DNA of 30,879 nucleotides from a virus. The stretch spans positions 1-30,879 of IMG/VR virus record IMGVR_UViG_3300010354_000362; one strand, written 5' to 3'. A program made the position numbers and the translations under genes. The notes under the pieces are model-generated. The model saw only the letters and a list, made by a program, of their open reading frames with translations. It ran no database searches and had not been told where the DNA came from. Below are positions 1,793 through 30,166 of the stretch, piece after piece (position 1 is the first letter of the stretch; each line of letters starts with the position of its first letter).

Positions 1793-2776
1793 TCACGAAG
1801 CGATGATGTTGGCGATGACGGCGTGAGCCTTTTCGCTCTTGATGCGCAGGCCGTACTCCACGACCATTTCCTTCTTGTCCGAGTCGCCAGTCTTGGCGAG
1901 GTCGAATGTGCGGAACGGACGGAGATACGAAACCGAAGCGTACTCAGGATCAAGCACGAAGGCGAAGTTACCGGGCGAGAAGCGGTTAGGGACGATAGCC
2001 ACTTCACCGAAGTCACCGAGGTAAACGTCAGCCGTTGCGATGATCTTGAGGGGAGCAACGCCTGTGTTCATCTGACGCTGCTGGGAAAGACCAGAGAACG
2101 CAGAAGCAACAGTCTTGTTGTAGGCGTTGACCATGAAGATTGACGGATCACCACCCTGTTCCCAAACCTGCTGGATAGCAGTCTTGAGCATCGTCTCCGT
2201 CAAAGCAACGTCTGTCGAAGTCGAAAGAGCAGTCCAAGCTGTTGAGGGATAGCCGTTGCCAGAAGCGCCAGACATAGCCGACACAGTAGCACCGTTAGCC
2301 TGAGAGTTGGTGATCAGCCATGTGGGCAGACCAGCAGTCTTACGAGCTGTGGAGGAGCTGTTACCAGCAACACCAGCCTGATTGCTCGTCAGGATAGCTT
2401 CCATATCGCGCTTCAGCTCTTTAGCAGCCTTAGCAGTCTGATAAGCCATCTGAGTGCGCATACCAGCATTGTTCACAGCATCGTCGGTGCCAGACACTGC
2501 GATCACCTTACGGCTGATCTGAGTGTAGTTAGCAACGCGAACAGTCGCGGTGAACTCAGCGTTACCAGCATCGGCACCTTCAACCACAGCGTTTGTTGTG
2601 TCAGCAGCCGCAAGAGCGTCTGTCTGCCACTCGAAGTATGTGTTTTCGCAGGTGTCGCGACCGATGTTGCTCATGAAGGGCGTATCAGTCGGGCTGATGT
2701 CATAGATGATGTTGCTCAGATCCTCACGGATCGAGTTAGGTGCGTCGTAGGTCGTAACCTTGGAAACAGAAGTCAT
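1793..2776 (-). CDS. Major capsid protein, SU10 / DUF5309-like
   Basis: A 327-residue protein starting MTSVSKVTTYDAPNSIREDL, followed by IIYDISPTDTPFMSNIGRD, FEWQTDAL, and later RVANYTQISRKVIAVSGT. This arrangement is characteristic of the SU10 major head protein family (DUF5309), an HK97-fold capsid protein used by podoviruses and some siphoviruses. A clear ribosome binding site (AGGAAG, 7 nt spacing) precedes the ATG. It follows the scaffold gene directly, the usual order, and is followed by a strong hairpin. No protease gene is seen nearby. Confidence 0.9.
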   Translation of the reverse strand: MTSVSKVTTYDAPNSIREDLSNIIYDISPTDTPFMSNIGRDTCENTYFEWQTDALAAADTTNAVVEGADAGNAEFTATVRVANYTQISRKVIAVSGTDDAVNNAGMRTQMAYQTAKAAKELKRDMEAILTSNQAGVAGNSSSTARKTAGLPTWLITNSQANGATVSAMSGASGNGYPSTAWTALSTSTDVALTETMLKTAIQQVWEQGGDPSIFMVNAYNKTVASAFSGLSQQRQMNTGVAPLKIIATADVYLGDFGEVAIVPNRFSPGNFAFVLDPEYASVSYLRPFRTFDLAKTGDSDKKEMVVEYGLRIKSEKAHAVIANIIAS

Positions 2777-18641: not shown

Positions 18642-19454
18642 TCAGCAGTCGAACGTAGGATCAACAAGCGCATAAGACGGAAGGGACAAAGTCATCACCC
18701 TGTCCACATAACTTGGCAGCGTGTCCTTATTCTTGAGCGCTTTCTTATAGGCTTCAGCCGCCTGCTTGATCAGCTTCCCGCCACTCCACAGACCTGCCTC
18801 GTCGATTGTATATACGCCAACGGCGTAGGGAGGTTCCGACTCAACAGCGATGAAGACAAACTGATCCAGCTCAATGCCAGTGATTTCATTGAAGCCATTG
18901 GCATAGTGGGCAGCTTGGATGTGGTAGGAGAAGGTGGCGATCTGACGAGCAAACCCAGCAGGGCTGGCGTCTTGGCAAGTCTTGAGATCCAGCATCATCC
19001 CTGACGTTAAGTAGTCCACACGGGCTTTGCATTTGACGCCATACTGATCCCACTGCATCGTGACTTCTGCATCTCCACCAACAGACATCAACTCTTTAAC
19101 CAGTGGATGAGCATGGGCAGAGGCTGCGATAGCCTTGGCTCGCTCATAGGCATACTCGTCAATGACGATCTTGCCTTCATTATCTGCCTCGAACTGCTCA
19201 GCGCCTTCCTTGCCAAACTTCGTACGCTTGTCGAACTTCGGCATGACGGCGTACTCTTCCTCAAACTTATGAGGCTCAAAGAAGAGTGTATGCGTCAGCG
19301 TGCCATTCTTCATAGCAGCAGTAGGCGCACGAGGATTGGCCTTATCAGCGAGGTAATGCGCTGGAGACTTCAGCAGCAGTTTCGCTGCCGAAGCGCTCAA
19401 TGCCTCAATCGCGTGATAGTCGGTAGCTGGCAGATTGTTTATTAGCTTTCCCAT
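18642..19454 (-). CDS. PD-(D/E)XK exonuclease, RecE/exonuclease VIII-like
   Basis: A 270-residue nuclease. The N-terminal NLPATDYHAIEALSASAAKL and GTLTHTLFFE (H55) are typical of the RecE-type PDDEXK group (DUF3799). The catalytic core is ARVDYLTSGMMLDLKT, with D147 and D156-x-K158 as metal and catalytic residues. It would resect double-stranded DNA ends for recombination. The start at MGKLINN is chosen because GGAG lies 10 nt upstream (GGAGAAG, tight spacing); it lies 50 nt inside the preceding gene. A RecT/ERF annealing partner is not obvious; the SSB-like protein might fill that role. Confidence 0.87.
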   Translation of the reverse strand: MGKLINNLPATDYHAIEALSASAAKLLLKSPAHYLADKANPRAPTAAMKNGTLTHTLFFEPHKFEEEYAVMPKFDKRTKFGKEGAEQFEADNEGKIVIDEYAYERAKAIAASAHAHPLVKELMSVGGDAEVTMQWDQYGVKCKARVDYLTSGMMLDLKTCQDASPAGFARQIATFSYHIQAAHYANGFNEITGIELDQFVFIAVESEPPYAVGVYTIDEAGLWSGGKLIKQAAEAYKKALKNKDTLPSYVDRVMTLSLPSYALVDPTFDC

Positions 19455-19599
19455 CTTTCTTCTCCACTTTGACGTCAGGACGCCATTCTCCACACCAATA
19501 TGATCTTGCGACACGCACAGGCTGCGGATGTCGCTGGCAAGTAAGTGAACCGCCTTCCTTGCTGACGGTGTACTTGCAGTTATTACAACTGTCGCTCAT
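19405..19599 (-). CDS. Small four-cysteine zinc-type protein (64 aa)
   Basis: A 64-residue protein with CNNC (C5, C8), C21 and C36 (RSYWCGEWRPD), an arrangement known in small phage proteins that bind zinc. The C-terminal third is basic and disordered (KVEKKDGKANKQSASYR); that part lies in the overlap with the exonuclease gene. Nucleic-acid or protein binding is likely; function unknown. Overlap of 50 nt with the downstream gene suggests coupled translation. Confidence 0.7.
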   Translation of the reverse strand: MSDSCNNCKYTVSKEGGSLTCQRHPQPVRVARSYWCGEWRPDVKVEKKDGKANKQSASYRLSRD

Positions 19600-19792
19600 T
19601 TTCCCATTCCTTCACTGCGGCATTGTCATCCTCCAATGCCTGCTTAGCCCACCAAGGAGGAAGGTCTTCATCATATCTATCGACATTTTCGATGTCGTAC
19701 AAACACCCCCTCAGACGATCAATGCGGTATTCCAGAGCTTCTACGAGACGCTCAAGATAGGCTATCTTCTTTGCGTCACTTTCGAAGTTCAT
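19583..19792 (-). CDS. Hypothetical coiled-coil protein (69 aa)
   Basis: A 69-residue acidic protein (MNFESDAKKIAYLERLVEAL, then LEYRIDRLRGCLYDIENVD and PPWWAKQALEDDNA). The first half is probably a coiled coil. GGGAGG lies 7 nt before the chosen ATG; an upstream ATG 12 codons earlier lies within the SGNH gene and has no ribosome site. It overlaps both neighbours by about 17 nt. Function unknown. Confidence 0.68.
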   Translation of the reverse strand: MNFESDAKKIAYLERLVEALEYRIDRLRGCLYDIENVDRYDEDLPPWWAKQALEDDNAAVKEWENERQL

Positions 19793-20171
19793 TTGCCACC
19801 TCCCTGTAGCTCCGTGGATGTACGCCATCGTTCGTCCTGAAGTTAATCAGGTCTAGTAGCCCGTCTCCGTTTTCCGCTGCGACCCGCCTGATGGCCTCGT
19901 GCGGCTGGTTGTGGTACGGCAATACCCAGATAACTTTGTCTGCGTCGATGTTCCTGCGAACAACACGCAAGTGACGGATTAGGCTTTTGATTGCGAGCGA
20001 ATCACCAACATCATTGCTGCCAAGGCTGATGATCACAGTCCCCGCAATGATGGGCTTGACGATGACGGCTTGGTGGTGGCTTGTGCGGCCAACCTTTGCC
20101 TCTAAGACGCAAGGCAGATGCTGCTTTAATCCAACAGCAATGCTGTCTCCAATAAGAACGCAGTCCATCAT
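19776..20171 (-). CDS. Minimal SGNH/GDSL-type hydrolase (131 aa)
   Basis: A 131-residue protein that carries all SGNH blocks in canonical order: block I VLIGDSIAVGL (Ser10), block II glycine in AKVGRTS (G28), block III ISLGSNDVG (N53), and block V NDGVHP (D115, H118). This is a short but complete esterase or deacetylase of the flavodoxin-like fold. No signal peptide is present. Substrate is unknown; glycan deacetylation is common in this superfamily. It sits in the replication operon next to a small membrane protein. It may start one codon later (tandem ATGs) after GAGGGGGGAG. Confidence 0.82.
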   Translation of the reverse strand: MMDCVLIGDSIAVGLKQHLPCVLEAKVGRTSHHQAVIVKPIIAGTVIISLGSNDVGDSLAIKSLIRHLRVVRRNIDADKVIWVLPYHNQPHEAIRRVAAENGDGLLDLINFRTNDGVHPRSYREVANELRK

Positions 20172-22808: not shown

Positions 22809-23711
22809 ATGGTTAAAAAAGACTTCGAGGCTTGGGTCACTGAACGCCATGAGCTTGGCATTATCAACGACAAGTCTCTTGAGAACTACAAGTCACTGAC
22901 GGCTCACTTCATGGCTAAGTTCGAAGATGTATCGGCTTGCGATATTTCCTCTAAGGATGTGACAAGGTTCTATGTCGAGCGCCTGAAGCTTGCTTCGCCC
23001 AGCACGATCCGCATCACCCATCAAATCCTTAAAAGCTTCTTCGCCGATCTTCAGAAGGAAGGTAAGATCAGCGTTTCGCCCATGATTGAAGCTAAGCCAC
23101 CTAAGAAGGCCGCTGGTGAGCGTAAGGCTCTTGATGACGAGCAGATCAAGGCATTGATGTCTTATGCTGCTACACGCCCGTTTCTGAGCCTTGTCGTGCA
23201 TCTTGCCATCAGCACTGGTATGCGCCGTGGCGAAATGGCTGCGCTGCGCTGGGGCGATGTCGATTTGAAAAACGGTCGCATCTACATCCGGCGCTCGCGT
23301 ATCAAAGTTGGTACATCTGAGATTGAGAAGGAGCCTAAGTCAGAGGCTGGCATTCGCACAGTCGTGATCCCAGAGACACTGATCTCATTCCTGTGTGACA
23401 AAGTAAGACACGACGATATGCCAGTTCTTGTCACGGCACATGGGCAACGGCCTTCTCTTGCCTATATTTCAAACGTCATCAAAGAGGCTATGAGAGCGAT
23501 AGGCTGCGATGACGGATACTGCTTGCACAGCACCCGCCACACACACGCCACACATCTTTTGAAAGCCAATATGCCTATCAAGGCAGTGTCGAAGCGCTTA
23601 GGCCACTCCGACATTTCCATCACTATGCGTACCTACGCCAAGGTGCTGGATAATGATGACGCTGAACTTGCCAGCGCCATCAATCAGATTATTCAAGCAA
23701 GCCCTGTGTAG
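22809..23711 (+). CDS. int: Tyrosine recombinase, phage integrase
   Basis: A 300-residue tyrosine recombinase. An N-terminal SAM-like core-binding domain (about 1-100) is followed by the catalytic domain with R139 (STGMRRGE), K177, H240-x-x-R243 (LHSTRHTHATHLL), H266 (LGHSDISITM) and the nucleophile Y276 (RTYAKV). All catalytic residues are present, so it should be active. It would integrate the phage into the host chromosome. GGGAG precedes the ATG. The 3' end overlaps the convergent ejection-protein gene by 23 nt. No attP core can be identified without the host sequence. Confidence 0.93.
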   Translation: MVKKDFEAWVTERHELGIINDKSLENYKSLTAHFMAKFEDVSACDISSKDVTRFYVERLKLASPSTIRITHQILKSFFADLQKEGKISVSPMIEAKPPKKAAGERKALDDEQIKALMSYAATRPFLSLVVHLAISTGMRRGEMAALRWGDVDLKNGRIYIRRSRIKVGTSEIEKEPKSEAGIRTVVIPETLISFLCDKVRHDDMPVLVTAHGQRPSLAYISNVIKEAMRAIGCDDGYCLHSTRHTHATHLLKANMPIKAVSKRLGHSDISITMRTYAKVLDNDDAELASAINQIIQASPV

Positions 23712-25173
23712 CTGCTTGGCTAATTGGATAGTTTCCAGCAGCGCGCAACATCAGCATTTCTTCTGCTGTAAGTGGACGCTGCTGGATACCACCACGACCC
23801 GCTCGCATCAGCTCTGACGCTCTTTGAGCATTTGCAGCAGTCATTGCAGTAGCGGCCTGACGGCCACCAATTCCAGCACCATACATAGCTGCAACGCCAA
23901 GAGGACCGCCAGCCGCGTAACCAGCAGAGCCAGCAATACCACCGCTAACGATGCCAGTTGGCGCGAGCTTGCCAAGATAGCGGAAGGCGTTTTCAATAGG
24001 ACCACCTTCTGCAACTCGCTTGATAGCGTTACGCTCTTCTTCAGTGAAGCCGCGCATACGGTTTTTATTCATGGCAAGCTGACGGAACTCTGTTCTTAGA
24101 GCATTCTCATAACCAGAGCCTGAGAATTGACCAGCGCGTGTTCCTGCGCGATCAATCAAGTCATCAATAACGCTTGCTTTAGCCTGTCTTGACCAAAGCT
24201 CACGCGCCTTGTTGAAGGCATCAATACCTTCTTTGGCATTGCCAGCAACGACATCACGCGGCTTGAGATTGTTAACGAAACTATCAAGCTCAGACATGAT
24301 GATTGCTGACGCAGCGCGATCACTTGCGTCCTGAGACTTAACGGCTGTTTGCACAACCTTACGGACAGTATCAAGCTCAGCGAGATCAACATCTCTTCCG
24401 ACAAGTTCATTTACTCGCTGAAGAGCACGAGTAGCACGCGGTTGAAGAACGGGATCAATACCAAAATCGTCAGCCACTCGCTGAACATTCTGCGCAAGGC
24501 TGCTGATCTGATTCTGACCAACCTTAACACCAGCCGTTCTTGCAACATCATAAGCTTCGTTAGCACGAGCCTTCAGTGCAGCGGCAGAGGGCGGCTCAAT
24601 TGCACGAGAAGCAAGCGCACCAGCTCCAGACAATGCGCCACCAAGAAGGCCACCAGTCAAAGCAGCTTCTGGTATGTTGTAATCTCGACCAGCCGCTTCT
24701 GCTGCTCCGATAAGAGCGCCTTCTGATATTCCAGCGCCAATTCTACCAGCAGTGGTAGTTGGTGTTGCAGCGGCGCGCAAAGCCTGTGCAGCAGCAGATG
24801 TTGGTGCAGCCCCTTCAGCCAACCTAGCTGTTGTACCAAAGATGCCGCCACCAAGAGCCAAAGGCGCAATTCCAGCGGTACGGAGAGCAAGTTCCTCTGC
24901 TGTTCCAAGACCACTTTGAGCAGCGGCTGTCTTTGCGCGTTCTTGCTGAACAAGATCAGCGTAAGCGCCTTGTCCAGCAGCAGAACGTGCCGCAGCTTGG
25001 AGTTTATCCCAAGCGCCCATTGTTAGGATGTCGTTAAAGAAGCGAAGCCTTTCAGTTGCAGCCTGAGTAAGTGTTTTCTCAGGAACCGCTTCTGCCAATG
25101 GAGCAGCTTCATACCAATTACCAGCAGCTTGCGGCTGCTCAACAACTGGTGCGCTTTCCCACCATTCAGCCAT
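23689..25173 (-). CDS. Ala/Gly-rich internal virion (ejection-type) protein (494 aa)
   Basis: A 494-residue protein. Residues about 95-215 and 400-450 contain glycine/alanine-rich hydrophobic blocks (IAPLALGGGIFG, LTGGLLGGALSGAGALA, GGIAGSAGYAAGGPLGVAAM) able to insert into membranes, and the centre is helical (ALKARANEAYDVARTAGVKV onward). Such composition is typical of ejection proteins that leave the capsid and form a channel through the host envelope. It is the last gene of the right virion cluster. Function is inferred from composition and context; its ATG overlaps the upstream stop (TAATG). Confidence 0.72.
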   Translation of the reverse strand: MAEWWESAPVVEQPQAAGNWYEAAPLAEAVPEKTLTQAATERLRFFNDILTMGAWDKLQAAARSAAGQGAYADLVQQERAKTAAAQSGLGTAEELALRTAGIAPLALGGGIFGTTARLAEGAAPTSAAAQALRAAATPTTTAGRIGAGISEGALIGAAEAAGRDYNIPEAALTGGLLGGALSGAGALASRAIEPPSAAALKARANEAYDVARTAGVKVGQNQISSLAQNVQRVADDFGIDPVLQPRATRALQRVNELVGRDVDLAELDTVRKVVQTAVKSQDASDRAASAIIMSELDSFVNNLKPRDVVAGNAKEGIDAFNKARELWSRQAKASVIDDLIDRAGTRAGQFSGSGYENALRTEFRQLAMNKNRMRGFTEEERNAIKRVAEGGPIENAFRYLGKLAPTGIVSGGIAGSAGYAAGGPLGVAAMYGAGIGGRQAATAMTAANAQRASELMRAGRGGIQQRPLTAEEMLMLRAAGNYPISQAATQGLLE

Positions 25174-26575: not shown

Positions 26576-27253
26576 TTACAGCAGGCCAATGCGCTGAGCA
26601 GCGGCAGCGGCTCTAAAGTAATCTGCTGCGTTTTCTGGGTCGCCCCAGTTTACAGTTTGTGGAAGCGGAGCGCCAGTCATGCCGGGGCCTTGCGGAGCCA
26701 TTACGACAGGCATTGCATTAGACTGATAGTCTTCGCCGCTAAAGATACGGCTGAAGAACCCCGGCGCAACTGACGCGGCTGTAGATGTCGCAGACTGAAT
26801 TGGTGCAGGGCGAGCATCAGCACTCGAAGTTACAGGAGCTGTAGGAGCAGTAAGACCGCCAAACTGGTTAGGCGCATAGGCCATCATTGATGGCAGAACA
26901 GGAGAGGTAGAAGTTGGTGCACTTGGTGCAGGCATAGCTGCCTGACCTCGCATACGAAGCTGCTCAATGGGAGAATCTTGCCCACCTACATAGCTCTGTA
27001 ACTGGCTATAAGCAGGACGCGCAGAGATAGCCGCTCCAGCTGGGGTGTCTGGGATCAAGCCAACTTGGCGCAACAGCTGCTCACGCACAGCATCTGTCGG
27101 CGCAAGAGGATTGGCAGCTGCCGCAACTGGTGCTGGAACAGCTTGATAACCGCGAGTTTGACGCTGACCAATAGCGTCAGTAAATGATGGTGAAGCAGGT
27201 CCACCGTATCCACGGGCCTGCGTCTGCATCAACCAATCCATCAGTGTAGCCAT
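26576..27253 (-). CDS. Pro/Ala-rich virion-cluster protein (225 aa)
   Basis: A 225-residue low-complexity protein rich in Ala, Pro, Gln and Ser. It has a short N-terminal helix (MATLMDWLMQTQARGYGGPA) and a short ordered C-terminus (WGDPENAADYFRAAAAAQRI). No domain is recognised. It is tightly packed between the transglycosylase-SGNH gene and the internal virion protein (TAATG overlap), so it is probably a virion assembly or internal protein. Confidence 0.65.
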   Translation of the reverse strand: MATLMDWLMQTQARGYGGPASPSFTDAIGQRQTRGYQAVPAPVAAAANPLAPTDAVREQLLRQVGLIPDTPAGAAISARPAYSQLQSYVGGQDSPIEQLRMRGQAAMPAPSAPTSTSPVLPSMMAYAPNQFGGLTAPTAPVTSSADARPAPIQSATSTAASVAPGFFSRIFSGEDYQSNAMPVVMAPQGPGMTGAPLPQTVNWGDPENAADYFRAAAAAQRIGLL

Positions 27254-28539
27254 TAGATCAGCCCTCTAAAGTACGGAAGTTGAACGATGCGGCGTGGCTC
27301 TTCTTGCGACTGCATAAGAGAAGGAACGCCAGTTTGAGGTGGAGCGCCAGCTGCTGCCAAAAGACCAAACGATTTTTGAGCCTCGCCAATAGCAGCAAGC
27401 TGCCGCCTTTGTTCTTCATTAGCCCTTCTTTGAGCCTCTGCTTCTGCGCCCTCTAGAGGTTTCGGAGCCTCTGCAAGGCCAAGCATTGACCCAAAGTAAG
27501 AAAGAGTTGTTCCTAGATCATTAGCATAAACAGGCGGCGCTGTTGATGCAGATGCTTCTGTTTGTGGAGCCTGAACTGGTGCAGGAGCAACAGGAGCAGC
27601 TTGAGAAATTGGAAGGCCAAACAATCCACCCTGATTTTCAGGTTGCGGCTGTTGGATTTGTGGAAGCCCCATGATGTTCTGAGCAATAGCAGAAGAACCA
27701 AGACCAGTTTGTGCCAGAACGACACCTTGTGGGTTTACAATCTGAGATCCCTGAGCCGCTGGTTTGTAACCCATACCCATACCAATGCGAACAGCATTGC
27801 TGTCACCGATTGGAATAGCACCGGGATATTGCTGACCAAGCTGGCGAGCCGACTCCATAGTTAAGTGAAGCGGGTCTTTTGGGTCATAGGTTCCAGCAGC
27901 AATCGTAGCGCCAGCATTAGTTGCTGCTGTACGGACTGCATCACTTACCGCCTTGAACCTATCATTTTCTGCGTTCGGTGGGACAATGATAGGAGTAAGC
28001 CCACGAGAACGAGCAGCATCAATAGCGCGCTGAGTAGCCTCTGCTGCTGCTTGTGGATTGGCGTAGTCGTTGGTTCCAAGTGCAATGAGAGCATTTCGAG
28101 CTTGGGTAGTTTGCGTCTCTGGCTGAACCGTCAACAACCCGGCTGAGTTGGCAAAGTTAGCCCCCTTGCGCGTAATAGCTTCAACGCCACCTTGATCCCT
28201 GACGGCATACCAAGGACCAGTCCCGCGATCCCTCATCATCTCAAGAGAGAAATCAACTTGTTGCTGCCAATTCTCACGAGAAGGAGCCTGACCATAGCGG
28301 CGCTGGAACTCATAAGCCAATCCACCCGGAGCAATTTTAGATGGATCAGGTGAGCCAGAGTAAAGTTGGAATGGACCAAAAGAATAACCGCGAGCATCAC
28401 GATTGCCAAAAGTAGAGCTGCCCAATGTGTTTGGGTTCAACCCCTCATAACGCGCAATACCAACGGCAAGGTTGGGGTCAATGCCGAAAGCAGGTGCGCG
28501 CTGGTAAATGTAGCGGGCAATCGTGTTGACATCTGCCAT
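27253..28539 (-). CDS. Virion transglycosylase fused to an apparent circularly permuted SGNH hydrolase
   Basis: A 428-residue multidomain protein. Residues 1-135 look like an SLT transglycosylase: GIARYEGLNP with E32 as candidate acid, then RGYSFGPFQLY. Residues about 148-290 contain SGNH blocks in shifted order: GTND (155-158, block III), DPLH (222-225, block V), GDSN (245-248, block I) and QTGLGSS (block II). The rest is a Pro/Ala/Gln-rich linker and an Ala/Glu/Arg-rich coiled segment (about 360-385). It probably digests or de-acylates the cell wall during DNA entry. The permutation is my inference from motif order. Its neighbours are internal virion genes. Confidence 0.78.
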   Translation of the reverse strand: MADVNTIARYIYQRAPAFGIDPNLAVGIARYEGLNPNTLGSSTFGNRDARGYSFGPFQLYSGSPDPSKIAPGGLAYEFQRRYGQAPSRENWQQQVDFSLEMMRDRGTGPWYAVRDQGGVEAITRKGANFANSAGLLTVQPETQTTQARNALIALGTNDYANPQAAAEATQRAIDAARSRGLTPIIVPPNAENDRFKAVSDAVRTAATNAGATIAAGTYDPKDPLHLTMESARQLGQQYPGAIPIGDSNAVRIGMGMGYKPAAQGSQIVNPQGVVLAQTGLGSSAIAQNIMGLPQIQQPQPENQGGLFGLPISQAAPVAPAPVQAPQTEASASTAPPVYANDLGTTLSYFGSMLGLAEAPKPLEGAEAEAQRRANEEQRRQLAAIGEAQKSFGLLAAAGAPPQTGVPSLMQSQEEPRRIVQLPYFRGLI

Positions 28540-28541
28540 TC

Positions 28542-29228
28542 CTAATACCCCATTATATTGCTTGAGATAATAGCATCTTTAATGATCCCAAGCCTGCGCT
28601 TAATCTCCATCTTCCTTTCTTCAGGAAGGTTCTCAATGCGCTGTTTGTTTTCATCCAAGTATGCTGTGCAATCCCAACAATCGCGGCCTGTTTTTTCGCC
28701 TTGATTATAACCGGGAGCCATTTCAGCTCCTACCAGTTTAAGGTAATCAAGAACCTCTTCATCTGACCAAGTTTCAATAGGCATCACATACTGAATACCG
28801 TCTACAACATCGCCGTTTCTTGATGTTGATTTGCGGCCATCAGCGATACGCTGACCTTTGATAACATACTTAGCGCCAGTGCTGAGAACTGCTGTGTGCA
28901 GAGGTATCCAGATATTCTCAGCGCAACAAGTCAAGTACGGCTGCAACAAAGGGCCTTCCGCTCCTGAAATAGACTTTCCAAGAACAGTGTTGTTGATTGG
29001 AAGCACATCTACAGGCCACCCATTCTCAGCAACTTGTTTTGGCTGGTTAGATTTAACCTCCCAAAAGTTTGGAAGCTTTTTCTTCCAGCCATCCATGTAC
29101 TCTTGCATCTCAGGATAAACAGCGCCTGTATTCAGCCAAATAACAAGGATCTCATCCCAGCGATGCTTGTTTAAGTACAAGCAAGCTAGGCTATCCTTGC
29201 CGCCTGAGAATAAAAGCGCTGTTTCCAT
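28542..29228 (-). CDS. PAPS-reductase-like PP-loop protein with Fe-S cysteine pattern
   Basis: A 228-residue adenine-nucleotide alpha-hydrolase fold protein. The PP-loop is FSGGKDS (7-13), followed by a typical VIWLNTGAVYPE and IKGQRIADGRKS. C101-C102 and C184-x-x-C187 reproduce the CC...CxxC pattern that holds a 4Fe-4S cluster in APS reductases. The C-terminal catalytic cysteine motif (ECGxH) is absent, so sulfonucleotide reduction is unlikely. Adenylation-linked sulfur or nucleotide chemistry, for example DNA or tRNA thiolation, is possible. It lies among virion genes, with TAATG overlap with its upstream neighbour. Confidence 0.82.
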   Translation of the reverse strand: METALLFSGGKDSLACLYLNKHRWDEILVIWLNTGAVYPEMQEYMDGWKKKLPNFWEVKSNQPKQVAENGWPVDVLPINNTVLGKSISGAEGPLLQPYLTCCAENIWIPLHTAVLSTGAKYVIKGQRIADGRKSTSRNGDVVDGIQYVMPIETWSDEEVLDYLKLVGAEMAPGYNQGEKTGRDCWDCTAYLDENKQRIENLPEERKMEIKRRLGIIKDAIISSNIMGY

Positions 29229-30166
29229 TAGAATGTCGCAAATGCAGCAAGGCCAGTAAGGAACGACCCGCCAGCTCCAAGAGCTGCCAAGGCATTATTC
29301 CCAGTCGGCATACCAGACGTTGTTGATGTTGTTTCTTTTCCGTATGGAAGCGCTCCAAGAGCAGCCAGACGAAGGTTGAGCGCTTCAGTTGGGTAATTTC
29401 GTTCAGCTTGGAAGCGAGCATAAGCTTCATCAAGCTGGCGCTGTGCCAAATCCTGACGGGCCTGACCAACCGCGCCCATAGTTGCAACATCAGTAAGCGC
29501 AGCCTGCTGGGCAAGACCTCCAAGGTTGGCGAGACCTTGACCACCCTGCAAGCGCAACCCTGCTGCCTGAAGTCCAGCAGCTTGATTGGCAAGAGCAGCT
29601 TGTTGTGCACGAGCCTGATCGGCAGCAATAGCCTGCTGGGCCTGACCGTAGCTCTGAGCCTGCAACTGAGCAGTCAGATCACCAATACCGCGAGCAGTTT
29701 CAGCCGCTGCAACGCCCTCCTGAATAGCCTGACGAGAACCGCCAAAGGCCCCAGCGCGGGATGCTTGAGACGCAATCTGGTTCTGTTGCATCTGGAGCTG
29801 ACGCATAGCAGCTTCAGAAGCGCGATTGATGACGTTCTCAGTATATGGGTTCATGTAGCCAGAAACATTGGCATTCAAGAAAGACTGAGACTGAACGTCT
29901 TGCGGGTTATATCCGGCAACGCCACCAATAGCCTGACCAGCCATTCCATACAAAGGAGCTGTAAGGCCAACTGAACGCTGCGCCAATCCAAACGCAGCTT
30001 CCTGCTCTGGCGTAAATGTAGCCGTCAGATTGCCGGGGTAGTTAACATAAGGACGCGCAGCGATTTCATTCGCAATACGCAGATTTTCTTGACCAGCTGC
30101 CTCAACCCACTCAGGGATCTTCTGCTGCTGAACAGTGGTTTGAGTACCGCCGCCACCTTTGCCCAT
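29228..30166 (-). CDS. Gln/Ala-rich virion structural protein (312 aa)
   Basis: A 312-residue protein with MGKGGGGTQTTVQQQKIPEW, then YPGNLTATFTPEQEAAFGLA, SGYMNPYTENVI, FGGSRQAIQEGVAAAETARG and long Gln/Ala/Leu-rich helices. This organisation is familiar in many environmental podovirus-like genomes, where the protein is annotated as a tail or internal structural protein. GGAGG lies 7 nt upstream. It likely forms part of the internal core or tail tube interior; exact position unknown. Confidence 0.75.
   Translation of the reverse strand: MGKGGGGTQTTVQQQKIPEWVEAAGQENLRIANEIAARPYVNYPGNLTATFTPEQEAAFGLAQRSVGLTAPLYGMAGQAIGGVAGYNPQDVQSQSFLNANVSGYMNPYTENVINRASEAAMRQLQMQQNQIASQASRAGAFGGSRQAIQEGVAAAETARGIGDLTAQLQAQSYGQAQQAIAADQARAQQAALANQAAGLQAAGLRLQGGQGLANLGGLAQQAALTDVATMGAVGQARQDLAQRQLDEAYARFQAERNYPTEALNLRLAALGALPYGKETTSTTSGMPTGNNALAALGAGGSFLTGLAAFATF

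Follow-up and report, generated by a model that had tools for sequence, protein, structure and literature searches.

A mobile domain with a predicted N-H-S-G permutation of the SGNH fold in a probable phage ejection protein

Circular permutation of the SGNH fold is known from AlgX/AlgJ and from PatB1, where the catalytic residues follow one another in the order H-S-G-N (PMC9487903, PMC4148444, PMC5697884). The AlgX/AlgJ alginate O-acetyltransferases have an SGNH-type fold in which the chain is cut between blocks III and V (PMC9487903, PMC4148444); the block III Asn is replaced by Tyr, i.e. H-S-G-N(Tyr), block V is of the DxH type, and the proteins are larger and carry a cap domain. In the PatB1/DHHW family, a permuted SGNH core is likewise found in an enzyme dealing with O-acyl groups of cell-envelope glycan (PMC9487903); it is marked by the HSGN order, by the blocks KDS, DXRY and TDHHW, and by an oxyanion Arg. 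The third point of comparison is functional. To act, lytic transglycosylases require that the C-6 OH of MurNAc be free, and O-acetylation at that position blocks them; before their own transglycosylases come into play, bacteria deploy SGNH esterases (Ape) as separate enzymes (PMC1199599). Neisseria Ape1, an SGNH esterase that clears the 6-O-acetyl group from MurNAc before lytic transglycosylases act (PMC1199599), is our working analogy; the likeness is at the superfamily level, and the Ape1 peptidoglycan O-acetylesterases are separate enzymes, placed under GDSL-2 (PMC9487903).

The domain presented here, of about 147 aa, differs from AlgX/AlgJ in that the chain is cut between blocks II and III, which gives the order N-H-S-G, and in that all four canonical blocks are kept. 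Where AlgX/AlgJ and the DHHW family have the order V-I-II-III with a DxH or DHHW motif, it has III-V-I-II and DxxH; the blocks and the oxyanion Arg peculiar to PatB1 are absent. A preliminary description, made from the DNA sequence, knew of no described example of a permuted SGNH joined to a transglycosylase; permuted SGNH enzymes as such are already described, though with another cut. The open-access literature, which omits most subscription papers, yielded neither an N-H-S-G order nor a permuted phage SGNH. The N-H-S-G order is new relative to the searched literature, permuted SGNH as such being already known. That the N-H-S-G order occurs in nature with no canonical block lost means that the SGNH fold can be opened at a second point of the chain, and it accounts for domain libraries recognising only half of the SGNH domain.

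The window, i.e. the whole stretch of 30,879 bases of viral DNA that was analysed, encodes portal, scaffold, major head and terminase proteins. The features of the 428-aa protein that carries the domain, and of a second SGNH protein used for comparison, are listed in Table 1. Two genes upstream lies 29228-30166, which has its match in a PHROG called 'DNA ejection protein'. Between it and the lysozyme/SGNH gene lies a PAPS-reductase-like gene (28542-29228, minus strand), within the virion cassette. Elsewhere in the window, PHROGs named 'major head protein' were matched twice, by 1793-2776 (minus strand; phrog_1328, E 1e-101), the product of which is likely the capsid protein, and by 23689-25173 (minus strand; phrog_21712), a family that is probably misnamed.

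Table 1. Positions in the window of the 428-aa protein, its domains and blocks, and of the comparison protein
Feature	Position	Strand	Basis
Two-domain protein, 428 aa, probable internal virion/ejection protein	27253..28539	-	ORF, neighbour gene, annotation of relatives
Lysozyme-like/GH23-type domain, residues 1-135	28135..28539	-	AF2, Foldseek, invariant residues
Very probable circularly permuted SGNH domain, residues 147-293, order III-V-I-II	27661..28101	-	Rotation tests, swapped alignment, model
Block III GTND, residues 155-158, predicted oxyanion Asn N157	28066..28077	-	Alignment with GSND of canonical proteins
Block V DPLH, residues 222-225, D222 and H225	27865..27876	-	Alignment with DGIH/DGVH of canonical proteins
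Block I GDSN, residues 245-248, predicted nucleophile S247	27796..27807	-	Alignment with canonical GDS
Block II TGLGSS, residues 278-283, predicted oxyanion Gly G279	27691..27708	-	Alignment with RVGAGS of canonical proteins
Pro/Ala/Gln-rich C-terminal tail, residues 294-428, variable among relatives	27256..27660	-	Comparison of relatives
Compact canonical SGNH protein, 131 aa, separate gene (comparison)	19776..20171	-	Motif order

The 428-aa ORF, its length and the four motifs were found as first described, in the natural order III-V-I-II, and all four catalytic-type residues are present (S247, G279, N157 and the D222/H225 pair). GDSN falls on the canonical GDS with its nucleophile Ser, G279 on the glycine of the canonical VGxxS, GTND provides the Asn of GxND, and DPLH falls on DGIH in the rotated multiple alignment. 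Only the linear order I-II-III-V is departed from, and rotation restores the similarity; we did not require that order for SGNH membership, permuted members being accepted. The region first proposed for the domain was borne out, with a small correction of its limits (Table 1). Its block II oxyanion glycine was misplaced: it is G279 rather than G281, because G279 is invariant and G281 is replaced by Asp in one relative (L005:5001-6464, which reads TGLDSS). S247, H225, D222, N157 and G279 are invariant in all 7 distinct domain sequences; with 80-98% identity between the domain of the window and those of its relatives, this conservation is weak evidence of activity.

Standard family searches of the whole protein with Pfam, PHROGs and NCBIfam gave nothing except a match to PF13472 (Lipase_GDSL_2), at 22.2 bits and over the block III half only. 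When the domain was rotated in ten ways, the PF13472 score peaked at 22.6 bits for cuts at 229-238, between blocks V and I, against 19.3 bits for the natural order, and reached 24.1 bits, over profile positions 3-147, with another junction; the curated cut-off of 32.9 bits was reached in neither order. PF13472 was the best Pfam family in 9 of the 10 rotations. A profile-profile comparison with only four canonical sequences was weak (E 0.0037 swapped versus 0.02 natural), and for that reason a broader canonical profile was built from 15 compact canonical SGNH proteins and TesA. With it, the best-domain score went from 12.9 bits in the natural order to 29.2 bits after rotation, with a broad plateau and a peak for cuts at residues 226-230, just after block V. 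The maximum was 8.3 bits for 400 shuffles in 13 rotations, and 5.8 bits for 321 unrelated phage segments. Three relatives responded likewise. Blocks I, II and III contribute most of the signal. Block V owes its placement to the multiple alignment only, where D222 and H225 fall on the DGxH of the canonical proteins and G279 coincides with the glycine of their block II.

Pairwise alignment told the same story. The canonical protein WP_010409155.1, from a Sphingomonas plasmid, aligned with the swapped sequence in one block covering I-II-III (29 of 72 positions identical, 40%), and with the natural sequence in two pieces of reversed order. It belongs with the product of 19776-20171 and with a protein of phage ctEw122 to the best canonical-order relatives that we found; all are of about 130 aa, with the motifs GDSxAVG, RVGxxS and ALIALGSND. 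They differ from the permuted domain in their I-II-III-V order, and in being encoded by stand-alone genes with no fusion to a lysozyme-like domain.

The AF2 model of the domain, based on 9 sequences (pLDDT 83.6, pTM 0.83), runs b-a-b-a-b-[DPLH]-a-b-[GDS]-a-b-b-[G279]-a, a rotation of the order of elements in SGNH enzymes. One local difference is that DPLHL forms a short strand in the model, block V being a loop in the canonical enzymes. The top 50 Foldseek matches of the model in the PDB included no SGNH enzyme and were weak and mixed, of Rossmann-like type; Foldseek being sequential, a permutation predicts such a miss, which does not amount to proof of one. Sequence searches of the PDB with the natural and swapped domain, as single sequences and as profiles, also retrieved no SGNH enzyme. 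These mixed matches of low significance and the want of a PDB enzyme in either order are what one would see if the domain were a generic Rossmann-like one, in which GTND, DPLH, GDSN and TGLGSS resemble SGNH blocks by chance. Such a coincidence is, however, very hard to reconcile with a rotation score far above both nulls, with a canonical SGNH protein that becomes colinear after the swap and with the rank of PF13472 among Pfam families, and we hold it to be highly improbable. From the rotation tests, the alignment that is colinear only in the swapped order and the predicted element order, we concluded with high confidence that residues 147-293 are a permuted SGNH domain, whose chain runs from the block III strand to a point beyond block II. 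Folding would bring S247, H225/D222, N157 and G279 into one ester-hydrolysing site.

The partner of this domain had been described as a transglycosylase of the virion, and the N-terminal part agrees with such a type. Residues 1-135 gave no Pfam match, including to lytic transglycosylase families, when the whole protein was searched. Their AF2 model (pLDDT 92.5) has the fold of the lysozyme superfamily: the top PDB matches in Foldseek were the E. coli lytic transglycosylase MltE and lysozymes, with probabilities up to 0.97 and E-values of at least 0.03. The catalytic Glu and the GxxQ motif are represented by E32, G55 and Q58, which are invariant in 16 relatives. The closest relatives of the N-terminus in sequenced phages are internal virion or injection proteins of Sulfitobacter phage phiGT1, for which a FlgJ/muramidase match was reported by the annotators, and of Sinorhizobium phage phiM5, which was detected in the phage particle. 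It is likely that virions carry the 428-aa protein and eject it.

The SGNH domain was found in six other distinct proteins, on ten contigs of IMG/VR. On 15 further IMG/VR contigs, the same N-terminal domain is joined directly to the variable tail, without an SGNH domain (L021 and L028 were not counted here, as these contigs end before the insert site); the virion can do without it. The silent differences between relatives are unevenly distributed. For the pair L002/L005, residues 1-140 have 64 silently different codons out of 112 that can be compared, and the domain has about 21 out of 138. In the pair L005/L011, by contrast, residues 1-80 are nearly identical and it is the domain that has diverged strongly. 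These opposite patterns indicate that the domain was swapped between lineages as a unit. The dN/dS ratio of the domain was at most 0.17 in every pair. The SGNH domain is therefore a mobile module behind the lysozyme-like domain, exchanged by recombination and under purifying selection. When 84,980 prokaryote genomes were scanned twice for the domain, no relative came back, a weak negative given narrow patterns and a second query that was a made-up consensus. The degenerate DNA pattern DPxH...IGDS retrieved from viral contigs only the same family and two chance matches. A Streptomyces LD-carboxypeptidase match was set aside, as it covers only a helix-strand piece, and a match in the Manatee Spring phage was rejected as chance.

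Outside this family, Synechococcus phages (51 records) have a homologous permuted domain, likewise as an insert, in tail proteins that are annotated as 'endolysin'; the homology was seen with tblastn (E 3e-5) and with Foldseek (E 1e-9), and ACG-2014d, S-SSM4 and S-SSM6b are among these phages. In ACG-2014d the protein is about 135 residues longer than the PHROG matched by its remainder, and the insert is absent from cyanophage S-RIM50. Two of these cyanophage 'endolysins' (L039:1616-4435 and L040:1128-3554) contain it as an unannotated permuted SGNH pseudoenzyme insert. These inserts differ from the domain of the window by their host protein and by replacement of the catalytic residues: GSKD or GTDQ stands in place of GTND, EPYS or a similar motif in place of DPLH, and GDQ or GDK in place of GDSN. 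The joint loss of all catalytic positions with the scaffold kept agrees with a single functional site in the active form, but at 34% identity it is no more than suggestive. A hidden, unannotated pseudoenzyme domain is thus indicated in the tail proteins of 51 sequenced phage records.

Since the cyanophage relatives have lost all catalytic residues, the fold can serve without catalysis, and one may ask if the domain of the window is likewise a non-catalytic module, i.e. a glycan- or protein-binding part or a spacer in the ejection machinery. The cyanophage homologues, which keep the scaffold and have lost Ser, His, Asn and Asp, lend this some weight; the window and its six distinct relatives, however, keep all catalytic-type residues in a domain that is exchanged and under purifying selection, so that a binding or spacer role appears unlikely. 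The domain is probably a catalytically active ester hydrolase.

The role that we favour, with some reservation, for this mobile permuted SGNH domain in a virion lysozyme protein is the removal of O-acyl groups from envelope glycan during DNA entry. The packaged protein would leave the head along with the DNA, the lysozyme-like domain would open the peptidoglycan and the SGNH domain would strip O-acyl groups from cell-envelope glycan as the DNA enters. The most attractive target would be the 6-O-acetyl of MurNAc: since a lytic transglycosylase depends on the C-6 hydroxyl being free, the esterase would unblock its neighbour; a fused deacetylase would give the phage both steps. By analogy with Ape1, action on peptidoglycan O-acetyl rather than on another acyl ester is put forward tentatively, at somewhat below even chances. 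The same permuted esterase could instead act on O-acetylated LPS, capsule, exopolysaccharide or a lipid ester, in keeping with the common reports of phage SGNH/GDSL domains in tail fibres and spikes on surface glycans; here, its partner is a domain of the peptidoglycan-cutting type in an internal virion/ejection protein, not a receptor-binding protein, and we consider a target of this sort rather doubtful. With a virion lysozyme-like domain as the partner, the favoured deacylation at entry becomes a testable idea: phages may bring their own de-O-acetylase against walls protected by O-acetylation. Whether all this describes an undescribed N-H-S-G class, i.e. an entry-phase deacylase coupled to a virion lytic transglycosylase, passed from phage to phage as a module and with a catalytically dead form in cyanophages, is in our estimate evenly balanced.

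The other SGNH protein of the window (Table 1) has the canonical order that had been attributed to it, with GDS (S10), VGR (G28), GSND (N53) and DGVH (D115/H118), all invariant in four sequences. Its GDS stands at residues 8-10, and so leaves no room for a signal peptide. Together with its relatives it appears, from sequence, to form a mini-SGNH family of cytoplasmic-looking proteins. Its gene is near an exonuclease VIII-like gene (18642-19514); relatives neighbour recT in phage ctEw122, and many plasmids of sphingomonads and Roseomonas encode others, unannotated and called 'hypothetical protein'.
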